DNA of 64,000 bases, from assembly GCF_016658865.1 (NCBI RefSeq), contig NZ_CP067992.1, positions 515,001 through 579,000 of the forward strand, written 5' to 3'. The DNA comes from Streptococcus mitis. Lineage in GTDB: Bacteria > Bacillota > Bacilli > Lactobacillales > Streptococcaceae. Positions 34,756 through 41,413 of the stretch are shown here, in pieces. The notes under the pieces were generated by a model. The model saw nothing but the letters and a program-made list of their open reading frames with translations, did not search any database and had not been told where the DNA came from. Made by a program: the position numbers and the translations under genes. Each line of letters opens with the position of its first letter. Positions within the stretch are counted from its first letter, which is position 1.

Positions 34756-34784
34756 TTGAAATCGTACTATTTTTATGTTATGAT
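34756..34784 (+). promoter_or_regulatory. Promoter of the LXG toxin cassette
   Basis: TTGAAA (34756-34761), 17 bp spacer, TATGAT (34779-34784); start near 34791, 30 nt before the first gene. Confidence 0.65.
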
Positions 34785-34820
34785 ATGGTCAATATATACT
34801 TAATAAGGGGAGTTTGAAGT

Positions 34821-35096
34821 ATGGGTGGAAAGATAAAATCTAGCACGATAGCAGCAGAGGCGGCTATTAATGAGTTGGTCGGGTATGAAACGAGCGACAA
34901 GCAAAATCAGCAGGTAGAATTTTCATATACATCTGGAATCACTGGAATGGAAGCGGGACGTCAGGCCTGCAATCAAATGCTTCAAGCGGTCAGTGATTTT
35001 AGTTCAGCTGTTTTGACACAAGCAAATAAGTTTCCAGAAATTGCTCAGAGGATTGAAAAACGTGATATAGAGCAAGCTAAGAGATGGAGTCACTAA
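34821..35096 (+). CDS. LXG-partner protein, TIGR04197/DUF3130 type (Lap1-like)
   Basis: A 91-residue protein predicted to be helical, with a WXG100-like size. It resembles the DUF3130/TIGR04197 family encoded just before LXG toxins; in S. intermedius such Lap1 proteins bind the toxin LXG domain and are needed for its export by the type VIIb secretion system. GITGMEAGRQACNQMLQAVSDFSSAVL looks like the helix-turn region. It is first in the operon, three bases before the next gene. Family match is from recall, not a search. Confidence 0.72.
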   Translation: MGGKIKSSTIAAEAAINELVGYETSDKQNQQVEFSYTSGITGMEAGRQACNQMLQAVSDFSSAVLTQANKFPEIAQRIEKRDIEQAKRWSH

Positions 35097-35099
35097 GGA

Positions 35100-35456
35100 A
35101 TGGCAGATAGAAATGAAGAAAAGCGCACAGAGATTTGGCGTAAGATTGTTAAGATAGAAGATAAGGAAGACAGACTCCGAGCAACTAAAAAGCAATATGA
35201 ACAGCAGTTGACAAACTTTTACTCGGATATTCAGAGCATTCACCATCGCATGATAAATCTATTATCTCTCTCACCCAGTTCTCGTCAGCTAATAGAGCAA
35301 ATCGAAAGTGATAATAGAACCATTCAGCGACAGGTCAACTCTTATGTAGAGGAGGAACTGGATACGTTGGAAAAACAAACTAAAAAGGCTTGTCGCTCTT
35401 TCGATGAGGCCAGAGAAGAACTGATAGTGGAAAGGAATCGGCTACCATGGGAGTAA
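35100..35456 (+). CDS. LXG-partner protein, DUF3958 type (Lap2-like)
   Basis: A 118-residue, highly charged, coiled-coil-like protein (EEKRTEIWRKIVKIEDKEDRL, then EQIESDNRTIQRQVNSYVEEELD). Size, order and composition fit DUF3958/Lap2, the second small partner needed for LXG toxin export in S. intermedius. It overlaps the toxin start by 10 bases, so toxin and partner are translated together. It has no membrane segment or signal. Confidence 0.7.
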   Translation: MADRNEEKRTEIWRKIVKIEDKEDRLRATKKQYEQQLTNFYSDIQSIHHRMINLLSLSPSSRQLIEQIESDNRTIQRQVNSYVEEELDTLEKQTKKACRSFDEAREELIVERNRLPWE

Positions 35457-37048
35457 AATACAGCGCACAAGAATCACAAGAATTGATTCAGGCCATGACG
35501 AACAACCTCCGAGTCGCAAATGAAGTCACAGACCGCTTATCTAGTGGATGTGATCACCTGATTTCCTCTTTAGACTCAGGTGAGTTGACAGGAGCAGCCT
35601 ACACAGCTGGTAAAGGTCTCTTTACAGAGATTATCATCCCCAGCATCAAGAAGTTACAAGCAGCGATAGATGATATCCAACTAGAGTTGACCTCCTACAA
35701 AGATGCGGATGCTCAGATCTCTGGATATGGAGATTTGGACCTAGACCAGCTTAAGGAATTGAAAAAGCTGAGAGAAGAGCAGTTAGCTATCGTAGAAGCT
35801 CAGATTCAAGTGAGGGAGAACTGGCTAAATCAAATCACAGACCTCTTTAGTCTCAATTGGGGGAAAGCCTTCTCTGAGAAGACCATCCTCTACAATACCA
35901 AGTTTCAAATCGAGTCGGGTATTCAGGATTTGAATGATAAGATTGAAAAACTAGAATTTTTTGTCTCACAGGTTTCCCAGTATTTCAACGATAGTCTAGA
36001 AATCCTTAGCTTAGCCATCAAAGGAGCCACGCAACTAAGTAAACTCATTGTCGACAGTGATGGTAACTACTATGCGGACGGTCTGGACATGAGCTGGGTG
36101 CAGAAGATGAAGGATGTGAAGATTGTTTCGCATGCCAAAAGAGATTTTCAAGACTCAGAAACTCGTGCCATCAATAAAGCTTCTAGGGATATGATGCTAT
36201 CGGACGATGGAGATGCCTACTATCGTGCCGAATTAGAGAAGCGCTTAAAAGGTCACGACAAGTCCGAATGGGATAAAATAATCGACGACTACAATCACAC
36301 TCTTAAGATTGATGAAACAGGGAATATCATTGACATTTATCCATTTGAACAAGGTTATTTCGTTTCAAAAAATGGGAAATACGATGCTGACTATACTCAT
36401 TTGGTTAACAAAAAGTTTGATGAACTAAAAGCACAAAACTTTGAAGCAAATTCAGTCGAATTTTGGAGTGGAGTAGCTCAAATATTCTCTGGATTGGGAG
36501 TTTACTTTGCGAGTGGCGCCCTCGAAGTTTTGAGTATCATGGCTGGTCCGCCAACAGCAGGGACAAGTATCGTAGCTGGTACGGCAGTGTCCGTATCAGG
36601 AGTACAATATGGAAATGTACTGATAGCTAGTGGAGCAGTGACTAGCTTATCAGCTATCACAAAGACGGCCTTACAAAATGGCGAAATTCAGGTTAATTAT
36701 TCTAGCAACTACGATAGCTGGAAGGCCAATAAACCGACGAGTAAGACCATTTCTGGTAGGGGTGGTAAACAAATTGAAGCCCGAGTAGGAAATCGAAAAG
36801 AGAACATTCGTGTAGATTGGGAGCCAAATAGTGGTCCTAATGGTGAAGGAGTATTTCAGGTTCAATCTGGAAGTGGGAAGTCGGGCTATTCGCTTAACGA
36901 AGCTATAGATGTTAATAGTATTTCAAGCAAAACAGATATATTGGATTGGGTGAATAAAACTAAAAAGATAAAGAATCTAGATAAAAGTGTGAAGAGTGAA
37001 ATTGTAGAAAGAATCTGGAAAGGATACCGAAACTATTACGGAAATTAG
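35447..37048 (+). CDS. LXG-domain polymorphic toxin, type VIIb effector
   Basis: A 533-residue protein. The N-terminal LXG domain (about 1-205) is helical and carries SLDSGELTGAAYTAGKGLF near 41-60. A middle part (about 205-345) is charged. A glycine-rich hydrophobic segment (about 345-405, QIFSGLGVYFASGALEVL and SIVAGTAVSVSGV) could insert in membranes or be a linker. The C-terminal 115-120 residues are basic and are the probable toxin domain; I do not recognise it. The toxin should be exported by a type VIIb machine, none of which is in the window. Directly downstream are paralogous genes likely to encode immunity proteins. Confidence 0.8.
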   Translation: MGVKYSAQESQELIQAMTNNLRVANEVTDRLSSGCDHLISSLDSGELTGAAYTAGKGLFTEIIIPSIKKLQAAIDDIQLELTSYKDADAQISGYGDLDLDQLKELKKLREEQLAIVEAQIQVRENWLNQITDLFSLNWGKAFSEKTILYNTKFQIESGIQDLNDKIEKLEFFVSQVSQYFNDSLEILSLAIKGATQLSKLIVDSDGNYYADGLDMSWVQKMKDVKIVSHAKRDFQDSETRAINKASRDMMLSDDGDAYYRAELEKRLKGHDKSEWDKIIDDYNHTLKIDETGNIIDIYPFEQGYFVSKNGKYDADYTHLVNKKFDELKAQNFEANSVEFWSGVAQIFSGLGVYFASGALEVLSIMAGPPTAGTSIVAGTAVSVSGVQYGNVLIASGAVTSLSAITKTALQNGEIQVNYSSNYDSWKANKPTSKTISGRGGKQIEARVGNRKENIRVDWEPNSGPNGEGVFQVQSGSGKSGYSLNEAIDVNSISSKTDILDWVNKTKKIKNLDKSVKSEIVERIWKGYRNYYGN

Positions 37049-37057
37049 GTGAAGTGT

Positions 37058-40184: not shown

Positions 40185-40214
40185 ATAAACCCAATCCTTC
40201 CATCGGAGAGCAAA

Positions 40215-40847
40215 ATGTTAAATAAAATGAAAAACTATTATAAAAACAAACCAACTCAAGCTGTCTTAATGCTCATAGTTCTTATTTGGTCAGTATATGA
40301 GATTGGTGCGACCAGTTTGGCAAGTAAATCTGCATTAACTAAGGAATTCATGCATAGTCGGTATGTTATGGTTTGGCCAATGGTAGATAAGAAAATGAAA
40401 TTATACCACTATGCGGAAGAATGGACTAATGACGTTTTAGTTGGAATTATGCATTTAGACTATGGAAATATTAAAATAACTAGTTTTCCTAAAAAATGGG
40501 AGAGTGAAGCTGAAGTATACTATACGCTGTCTCAGGATGAGTATGCTGATAGAGTATATTTTTTCTTAGACGAGCCAATTTCCAAAGCCTATATCAGCAG
40601 ATTAGAACAAAATTATTATTTGATTTCAAATAATGCAGTTGCTATTAAAGAAGAAACAGGTAAAACAGTTGAACAGTTAGCTCAAGAAGTGGGGAATGCA
40701 AGGAAAAATTTCTTATCAGTTCTTGGAAAGATGAAAATCCTTCGTTTGGTCTATTTGATTCTTCGTATGATAATATTGTTGCAGTGTATCAGGTGGTCGG
40801 GTCAGCGTAGAAAAAGGAAAGAGAGCGAAATTTTGCAGAATAGATAG
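40215..40847 (+). CDS. Membrane protein of unknown function in the LXG cassette
   Basis: A 210-residue protein with a membrane helix near the N-terminus (about 16-36, QAVLMLIVLIWSVYEIGATSL), an extracellular-type middle of about 120 residues, and a second helix near the C-terminus (about 172-192) followed by a basic tail. GGAGAG lies before the ATG. I do not recognise a family. It could be a second immunity or accessory protein of the toxin, especially if the toxin acts at the membrane. Confidence 0.6.
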   Translation: MLNKMKNYYKNKPTQAVLMLIVLIWSVYEIGATSLASKSALTKEFMHSRYVMVWPMVDKKMKLYHYAEEWTNDVLVGIMHLDYGNIKITSFPKKWESEAEVYYTLSQDEYADRVYFFLDEPISKAYISRLEQNYYLISNNAVAIKEETGKTVEQLAQEVGNARKNFLSVLGKMKILRLVYLILRMIILLQCIRWSGQRRKRKESEILQNR

Positions 40848-40886
40848 AGCTCCAGAAAGGTATGACGACTATAAGGAGAGTAACAA

Positions 40887-41384
40887 ATGACCTATAGGAA
40901 GAAAAAAATCTGGAAATTAGGTTGTGGCTTGTTAATATTAACCCTAGCAACTAGCATTTTTGGACTATATTTATGGGCACAAAATCTTGGTAAGTATACT
41001 CTGCAACCAGGTCAAAGTGTTGAATTGAAAGTTTTTTCTAAAACAGAGCAGCGGGAGTATAATTCGGAATTGATTTTTTTAAAAAAAGATGAGGCTAAAT
41101 TAAAATTATCTGGCCGAAAAGGATGGGGGATTAAAGGAGGTAACACGGTTTATAATGTTGAGAAGCAGTCAATAACTGAGATTATTATCTCTAAAGATGG
41201 AACAGAGCACAGAGACTTACCAAATGATAAGAGTAAAAGTATCTATTTAGAAAGTGATGGAATAGTGCTTCAAGGGAGAATAAAGGAAGTATTTGGGGTG
41301 ACGGAAGAAACTCCCTACACGATCACCATCACCAATGTAGACGACAAGCCAGCACACTTTGAAGCTCAAGTGGTGGATAGGTAA
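40887..41384 (+). CDS. Single-pass membrane protein of unknown function
   Basis: A 165-residue protein with a basic start and one helix (about 9-31, IWKLGCGLLILTLATSIFGLYLW) followed by an extracytoplasmic part rich in beta strands. The cysteine at 13 is within the helix and lacks a lipobox, so it is not a lipoprotein. Ends with TITITNVDDKPAHFEAQVVD. AAGGAG lies ahead of the ATG. It is the last gene of the cassette before a terminator. Function unknown. Confidence 0.6.
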   Translation: MTYRKKKIWKLGCGLLILTLATSIFGLYLWAQNLGKYTLQPGQSVELKVFSKTEQREYNSELIFLKKDEAKLKLSGRKGWGIKGGNTVYNVEKQSITEIIISKDGTEHRDLPNDKSKSIYLESDGIVLQGRIKEVFGVTEETPYTITITNVDDKPAHFEAQVVDR

Positions 41385-41390
41385 AATTTC

Positions 41391-41413
41391 AGCTCTCAAA
41401 TGAGGGCTTTTTT
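41391..41413 (+). terminator. Terminator of the LXG cassette
   Basis: AGCTCTC-AAAT-GAGGGCT followed by TTTTT, with one G-T pair. Confidence 0.82.

Follow-up and report, generated by a model that had tools for sequence, protein, structure and literature searches.

The stretch analyzed here, referred to as the window, comprises 64,000 nucleotides (nt; bases 515001-579000) of the 2.03 Mb genome of a Streptococcus mitis strain (G000), and its interval between the genes recR and ddl holds a toxin-like gene followed by a row of putative immunity genes. Eleven reading frames were found in this interval, all on one strand and two of them relics. They include two small partner genes, an LXG-like toxin gene ending in a short tip, six copies or relics of one family of 205-208 residues, and two genes for membrane proteins (tm1 and tm2). 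A sequence-only reading of the window had listed these genes, and every gene it named was located at the position it gave; the six family members and the two membrane-protein genes were confirmed in the reading frames and by sequence comparison. In the following list, types refer to the clusters of tips or immunity copies described below, position 1 denotes the copy directly behind a toxin, and codes beginning with G denote genomes.

33908-34504, + strand: recR, left flank of the insertion
34538-34573, + strand: terminator-like hairpin 3' of recR, 16 pairs with a T tail
34756-34784, + strand: promoter-like site (TTGAAA-17-TATGAT, second hexamer preceded by TG), immediately 5' of the partner genes
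34821-35096, + strand: partner A, 91 amino acids, Lap1-like, with DUF3130 and TIGR04197 matches under cut-off and no FxxxD motif
35100-35456, + strand: partner B, 118 amino acids, Lap2-like by position only (DUF3958, E 0.11)
35447-37048, + strand: LXG-like toxin, 533 amino acids, open throughout (backbone 35447-36718, tip 36719-37045)
36719-37045, + strand: toxin tip, type 3 of 11, 109 amino acids, isoelectric point 9.8, modeled as four strands followed by helices
37058-37684, + strand: immunity copy 1, type 10, probably the antidote cognate to the window's tip, 99.5% identity with the position-1 copy of G120
37681-38298, + strand: immunity copy 2, orphan of type 8, sharing 85.9% identity with its counterpart at position 1 in G234 (tip type 5)
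38295-38912, + strand: immunity copy 3, type 11, orphan with a 12-nt in-frame deletion, position-1 matches in G020 and G206a
38909-39292, + strand: immunity copy 4, type 10 relic comprising the first 128 residues, joined to the tip relic at a short shared stretch
39280-39387, + strand: toxin-tip relic, last 35 residues of tip type 10 (35/35 residues, E 8e-18) and the stop codon
39397-40023, + strand: immunity copy 5, type 3, orphan, 96.7% identical to the position-1 copy of G021b, which stands behind tip type 10
40020-40184, + strand: immunity copy 6, relic of type 1, 95.7% identical over 47 residues to G194_4
40215-40847, + strand: tm1, membrane protein, probable orphan antidote, relatives directly behind a different LXG toxin in G121, G188, G191, G193 and G194
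40887-41384, + strand: tm2, membrane protein, probable orphan antidote, relatives behind Ntox44 or Ntox44-like LXG toxins in G024, G193 and G113
41391-41408, + strand: terminator-like hairpin before ddl, with the same caution about chance as for the hairpin 3' of recR
41489 (start): ddl, right flank of the insertion

Terminator-like sites in the region numbered three, a count not above the 3.2 ± 1.6 of shuffled sequences, and the region scan detected none on the gene strand between the promoter-like site at 34756-34784 and the hairpin at 41391-41408. Promoter-like sites numbered 37 compared with 22.2 ± 4.4 in shuffles, and the one listed is a consensus match rather than proof of a promoter. 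The flanking genes had been described as neighbors in pneumococcus, which was borne out: in a sample of 143 out of 284 genomes of the genus, 50 had a recR of at least 97% identity, and 48 of these carried recR and ddl on one contig. The two genes were separated by a spacer of 167-181 nt in 41 of the 48, and the site was occupied in the other seven (gaps worked out by hand).

The best reading of the locus is an interbacterial toxin site of a type VIIb secretion system, with toxicity and export predicted from sequence. The toxin matched the LXG profile PF04740 with 22.3 bits (cut-off 26.5) over profile positions 5-194 of 202, and this profile was absent from the direct Pfam scan matches of the toxin at E up to 1. 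Some relatives pass the LXG profile: an Enterococcus toxin with a recognizable tip of this kind (locus L096) scored 29.0 bits, and P0147 carries PF04740. The two partner genes sit directly upstream of the toxin. Partner A matched DUF3130 (16.0 bits of 25, E 0.015) and TIGR04197 (19.4 bits of 26, E 0.0011), and partner B matched DUF3958 (13.2 bits of 26.3) under cut-off. Both partners were matched in nearly all toxin loci read; partner B was not found in L054. In addition, the window genome encodes a full-length EssC (TIGR03928 at G000:C1:323260-327084, positions 4-1294 of 1296, 1540.5 bits). EssC exceeded its cut-off in 19 of 23 tip-bearing genomes versus 79 of 261 others (Fisher p 1e-6, kinship ignored). 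The four tip-bearing genomes below the cut-off comprised G141 and G230, with partial matches, and G121 and G127, with none beyond background; in the latter two the tip-bearing toxin is broken.

The profile search also identified five further LXG places elsewhere in the window genome. Four of these matches lie in a row just behind essC (G000:C1:328219-342445, open frames of 606-738 residues), and one lies about 33 kb beyond the recR-ddl site (G000:C1:583628-584164, 553 residues).

The six copies in the window were the only members of the 205-208 residue family found in the 2.03 Mb genome. Compared with copy 1, the other full copies share 55-65% identity, copy 4 shares 95% over 128 residues, and copy 6 shares 57% over 51 residues, with E values from 7e-84 to 5e-13, far beyond chance. 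Copy 1 likely starts at the ATG at 37058 and not at the GTG at 37049; in 27 of the 28 loci compared, ATG is the start codon of the first copy. In copy 3, the 12-nt deletion takes RAMY, four conserved residues, out of LTVDKRAMYIMA, the most conserved stretch of the family. The homology of copy 4 extends over 128 residues, beyond which its frame continues into the 3' end of another toxin tip. No Pfam match to the family was found at E up to 1, and NCBIfam matches were weak and to unrelated families, while 3782 database proteins matched the family itself. Its 5' and 3' parts are conserved and its middle is variable.

Tips and immunity copies were found to have opposite charge. The isoelectric point was 9.4-10.1 in all 23 tips and under 4.9 in all 105 full-length copies, and a basic toxin with an acidic antidote is a combination seen in many nuclease-antidote pairs. 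The tip itself had no significant Pfam or NCBIfam match and no named family was found for it, and a nuclease action would be a guess. None of the 105 copies showed a membrane segment (the highest 19-residue Kyte-Doolittle mean was 1.41, at residue 108), which suggests that the target of the tip may be cytoplasmic. Within the rows, 69 of 72 junctions between full copies had a 4-nt overlap of stop and start, and these overlaps suggest that a row is translated as a chain, in which each copy forms an exchangeable unit.

The family was matched in 33 of the 284 genus genomes at E 0.001 or better, of which 27 gave readable loci. In total, 28 loci from these 27 genomes were read, the window's included, and six of them had a single full copy. 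Four loci were fetched but left out of the counts, namely those of G192 (single copy) and G024 and one additional locus each of G206 (rich in fragments) and G019; the weak matches of G026, G062, G189, and G241 were not fetched. At 75% identity, the 23 tips fell into 11 types, type 7 being the relic of G193, and the 105 full-length copies (190 residues or more) fell into 14 types. The relic of G193 was included in the Mantel test (n=23) and excluded from the count of tip to position-1 types, and the broken tip of G127 was left outside the tip clustering.

The tip type predicted the copy that stands directly behind it. Distances between tips and between position-1 copies were correlated (Mantel r 0.75, p 1e-4, n=23), and the correlation held after correction for the toxin backbone (partial r 0.85, n=19), while tip and backbone distances correlated only at 0.17. 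The tip and its antidote therefore seem to travel together as a pair on a backbone that varies independently. Among tip types seen more than once, one position-1 type per tip type was found in 15 of 17 loci: tip type 3 with copy type 10 (5/5), 8 with 1 (6/6), 9 with 4 (2/2), and 2 with 11 (2/2). No correlation with tip type was found at positions 3 to 5 (r 0.08, -0.24, and 0.19). Four loci beyond the genus were compared. In those of a Streptococcaceae bin and of two Enterococcus, an LXG-like toxin with a recognizable tip stood, by eye, directly before the family member, and the member in the fourth, from Lactococcus, was an orphan. In the window, only copy 1 is likely to be the cognate antidote of the tip, a point that the sequence-only reading had missed.

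The remaining copies matched antidotes that stand beside other tips. Copy 1 is closest to the position-1 copy of a genome with the window's own tip type (G120, 99.5%), while copy 2 resembles that of G234 (tip type 5, 85.9%), copy 3 those of G020 (tip type 2, 79.4%) and G206a (tip type 1, 85.5%), and copy 5 that of G021b (tip type 10, 96.7%). The relics, copies 4 and 6, belong to types 10 and 1, the latter standing behind tip type 8 elsewhere. In total, 82 full-length copies stood elsewhere than right behind a clustered tip, and 73 of them were of types that occur at position 1 next to a tip in some locus (72 of 81 if the copy of G127, one of the 82, is excluded). Same-type repeats within loci numbered four, compared with 19.3 ± 3.0 in 5000 label shuffles, none of which was as low, and a second copy of the locus's own position-1 type was found in only one of 18 multi-copy loci. 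The sequence-only reading proposed that the row stores immunity variants directed at the toxins of other strains, and the comparison strongly favors this idea at the level of sequence, protection itself being predicted; rows of the family in four genomes without any match to the tip, described below, point the same way; the family was also not found mainly away from toxin genes in the locus comparison, the pattern that had been named as speaking against it.

These data bear on a simpler origin, in which tandem duplication at the site produced the copies, which then diverged locally, forming an array without any link to foreign toxins. Copies 4 and 1 share 92.4% DNA identity over 384 nt, so that one fairly recent duplication or conversion, or a second gain of the type, did take place, and the 4-nt overlap common to 69 of 72 junctions would suit unequal exchange. 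The full copies of the window, on the other hand, share 55-65% identity with copy 1 but 88-99.5% with their best counterparts in another genome (99.5%, 90.7%, 87.6%, and 96.7% for copies 1, 2, 3, and 5, respectively), and same-type repeats fell far below the shuffles. Duplication in place is accordingly considered very improbable.

The state of preservation of the copies was also analyzed. The median pairwise ratio of nonsynonymous to synonymous substitutions (dN/dS; pairs with dS between 0.03 and 1.5) was 0.131 among cognate copies (23 pairs), 0.133 among orphans (327 pairs), and 0.135 among copies in rows without a toxin (15 pairs). Toxin-free rows were found in four genomes, all with EssC over the cut-off and with no match to the tip, and carry two to six copies each, of which 19 of 20 are intact. 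They occupy one site, between an ABC transporter gene and an aldo-keto reductase gene (L063, L073, L075, and L076), and the rows of G078 and G149 have an identical order of types, so that they represent few independent cases. As judged from these ratios, orphan copies appear to be under purifying selection like the cognate ones, which shows that they are not decaying fast and is not proof that each protects.

That the downstream copies are functionless leftovers, decaying and slowly lost, consequently appears quite unlikely. Fragments or interrupted genes made up 22 of the 101 members not directly behind a clustered tip (pieces of one gene may count twice; the G127 copy is included), and the damage in copies 3, 4, and 6 of the window would fit decay. 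The other 79 of the 101 are intact, three of the 82 full-length copies having an internal stop, and the dN/dS of the intact members equals that of cognate copies. Likewise, the near-complete integrity of the toxin-free rows speaks against decay, as do G121 and G127, which keep four and one full-length copies, respectively, despite broken tip-bearing toxins and no EssC over the cut-off.

A further possibility, argued previously for esaG and tipC, is that the copies serve as a sequence reserve from which recombination makes new specificities, rather than as working antidotes. The conserved ends and variable middle of the family fit this idea, and recombination between tandem esaG and tipC copies has been described (PMC9484751). 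Most orphans, in contrast, can be assigned to discrete types, each found again in other genomes next to a particular tip, and whole copies therefore seem to have been moved and kept. As the main role of the copies a reserve is unlikely, although it is compatible with a stock of antidotes.

Physical traces of past exchange were found in front of copy 5. The segment 39280-39384, in another frame than copy 4, encodes the C-terminal 35 residues of tip type 10, identical to G021b at all 35 positions, and the DNA from 39278 to 40019, extending into copy 5, shares 97.4% identity with the G021b locus (L061). The end of the toxin type to which copy 5 belongs thus lies directly in front of it. The joint between copy 4 and this relic lies in a short shared stretch; the truncation of copy 4 had been noted in the sequence-only reading, and the relic had been missed. 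Similarly, in G193 a longer tip relic stands before a type 10 copy, behind an LXG toxin with an Ntox44 tip and a tm2-like gene. The remaining extra matches in the search for tip relics were tm2 ends and a weak match in a neighboring gene.

The two membrane proteins at the ddl end probably belong to the same stock, as judged from the neighbors of their relatives. Matches to tm1 were found in 18 genomes, all of which were read except G187, G189, and G088, and in five of the 18 the relative stands directly behind one kind of LXG toxin (G121, at its recR-ddl site, G188, G191, G193, and G194). Matches to tm2 were found in 38 genomes, of which a part was read. In G024 and G193, the tm2 relative (88% and 49% identity, respectively) comes directly after an LXG toxin whose tip matches Ntox44 in Pfam (35.2 and 28.6 bits, respectively; cut-off 24), and at the recR-ddl site a relative lies directly behind an LXG toxin with an 81% identical tip in G113 and behind a broken one in G125. 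The sequence-only reading had seen both membrane proteins and missed that they are probably leftover antidotes like the 205-208 residue copies.

The ddl end of the insertion is shared among genomes. In all 11 occupied sites read, including G230, whose recR is on another contig, tm2 or its 3' end stops 108 nt before the start of ddl; five sites have a full tm2, four have residues 107-165, and two have residues 151-165. In contrast, tm2 was absent from all five empty recR-ddl sites read. G113 shows a simple form of the locus (recR, partners, LXG/Ntox44 toxin, tm2, ddl) and by eye shares both junctions with the window. Additionally, in nine loci with the 205-208 residue family beside ddl, the full copy nearest ddl was of type 3 or 4 in every case, while the copy nearest the toxin fell into five types. 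The simplest history would be one founding insertion of partners, LXG/Ntox44 toxin, and tm2, followed by exchanges at the toxin end.

Taken together, the locus very likely arose as toxin tips were replaced while earlier antidotes were retained, a process proposed for the type VI secretion system (T6SS) of Vibrio. In the proposed mechanism, a basic 109-residue tip on an LXG-like backbone would be exported with the two partners, and acidic copy 1, directly behind the toxin and lacking a membrane segment, would neutralize it. Recombination would replace the tip by the tip-plus-antidote pair of another strain, and the old antidote would be moved one place towards ddl and retained. Copies 2, 3, and 5, relics 4 and 6, tm1, and tm2 would be leftovers of such swaps, the intact ones probably still protecting against relatives with matching toxins. 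The comparison supports this account in that the tip predicts copy 1, orphans match the position-1 neighbors of other tips, a relic precedes its own copy, and the ddl end is common; toxicity, neutralization, export, protection, and the order of events are what we infer beyond it.

A bolder form of the account, for which we hold the chances to be even, would regard the recR-ddl interval as an ordered record of weapons, newest at recR and oldest at ddl, where tm2 would be what remains of an Ntox44 toxin. Its three unrelated immunity families would be carried on one translationally coupled transcript and selected as a heritable immune memory, and the toxin-free islands would be memory without a weapon.

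Several observations weigh against displacement with retained antidotes. The LXG and partner matches that the sequence-only reading had expected exist, but in the window all three fall under their curated cut-offs. The FxxxD motif, needed for export of the Lap1 protein LapD1 (PMC9600955), is missing in all 27 partner A sequences listed, the window's included, which have F-P-[EDQ]-I-A instead, and G121 carries a second, open LXG toxin of another kind and yet no EssC over the cut-off. Tip type 1 has two position-1 types, 11 in G206a, where the toxin is broken and a 172-nt gap precedes the first copy, and 6 in G019. Position 2 also tracks the tip type (r 0.53, p 1e-4, n=16; partial 0.54), so part of the tip signal reflects shared history, and position 6 does so weakly (r 0.49, p 0.04, n=6). 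Nine of the 82 copies are of types without a known tip, and damage is present in three of the window copies (3, 4, and 6). Apart from the window and G193, none of the 28 loci yielded a tip relic at E 0.05 (26 loci). No toxin match accompanied tm2 in nine of 16 loci fetched around tm1 or tm2 relatives, and the 15-residue tm2 pieces of G121 and G127 reached E values of 9e-5 and 7e-4. Finally, the genomes are related, so that neither the shuffles nor the dN/dS pairs are independent, and the orphan dN/dS may stem from a period in which these copies were still cognate, if orphan status is young.

Polymorphic toxin systems and polyimmunity loci, with exchangeable toxin tips and rows of immunity genes, provide the general frame for these results. 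The tip and immunity family of the window have no significant match in Pfam or NCBIfam. The closest parallel in mechanism is the T6SS of V. cholerae, for which displacement was proposed to explain effector-immunity arrays: a new pair in front, the old effector lost, old immunity genes in a row behind, and the 3' end of the old effector shifted back (PMC5361080). Signs of such displacement are seen here in an adjacent copy that follows the tip (15/17), orphans that match other tips (73/82), and a tip relic (window and G193). The present locus differs in that it involves streptococcal type VIIb LXG proteins of other families, with the tip swapped on an independently varying backbone, and that toxin-free rows also occur.

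Among streptococcal systems, the telC loci are similar in having an LXG toxin with two partners, several paralogues of the immunity gene tipC, and an orphan toxin domain (PMC6193138, PMC9484751, PMC9600955). Only the telC-adjacent copy among the tipC copies of S. gallolyticus is described as binding the toxin (PMC6193138), and other immunity families are reported behind LXG toxins of the same species (PMC13253547). TipC is described as facing outwards and countering a lipid II phosphatase, whereas the window family has no membrane segment and accompanies a small basic tip; a comparison of the single sequence of copy 1 with PDB chains gave no match to TipC2 (6dhx) at E up to 1. The esaG and tsaI genes of Staphylococcus aureus similarly form rows of non-identical immunity genes of the type VII secretion system (T7SS), with a tspA fragment inside the tsaI row; they belong to other families, and the passages on these rows mention none in which unrelated immunity families are mixed (PMC9484751). 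Among literature titles and abstract openings, none on this family or site was noticed, sequence families not being searchable by text.

Rows of T7SS immunity genes and the displacement mechanism are thus already known, and the present locus extends a class described in Vibrio and Staphylococcus by a toxin-tip family and an immunity family, with no name found for either. The relic before its own copy and the common end layer with its constant spacing to ddl provide direct physical evidence for the displacement model, and the match between tip type and copy type makes an immune memory testable copy by copy.

Further variation was observed around these families. The Lap1-like partner with F-P-[EDQ]-I-A (34821-35096 in the window, and 26 relatives) forms a subfamily whose signal is different or missing. 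In G129 (L069, L123) the recR-ddl site is empty (177 nt), yet the same kind of toxin and row occurs elsewhere in the genome, with a 93% identical backbone. A second region of G206 (L051, G206:C1:2005001-2025000) resembles a graveyard, with many broken family pieces on both strands. In G130, a sister row at the recR-ddl site carries a relative of TipC2 (E 4e-10), and genes with the same start are present in G119 and G230 (not searched). Locus L052 contains a tandem row of six or seven frames of 176-228 amino acids (reverse complement, 1238-5397), several with KNIFDEIYQETEKTY-like starts, which by eye recalls the TipC2-related gene of G130 and is perhaps a tipC row (not searched separately).

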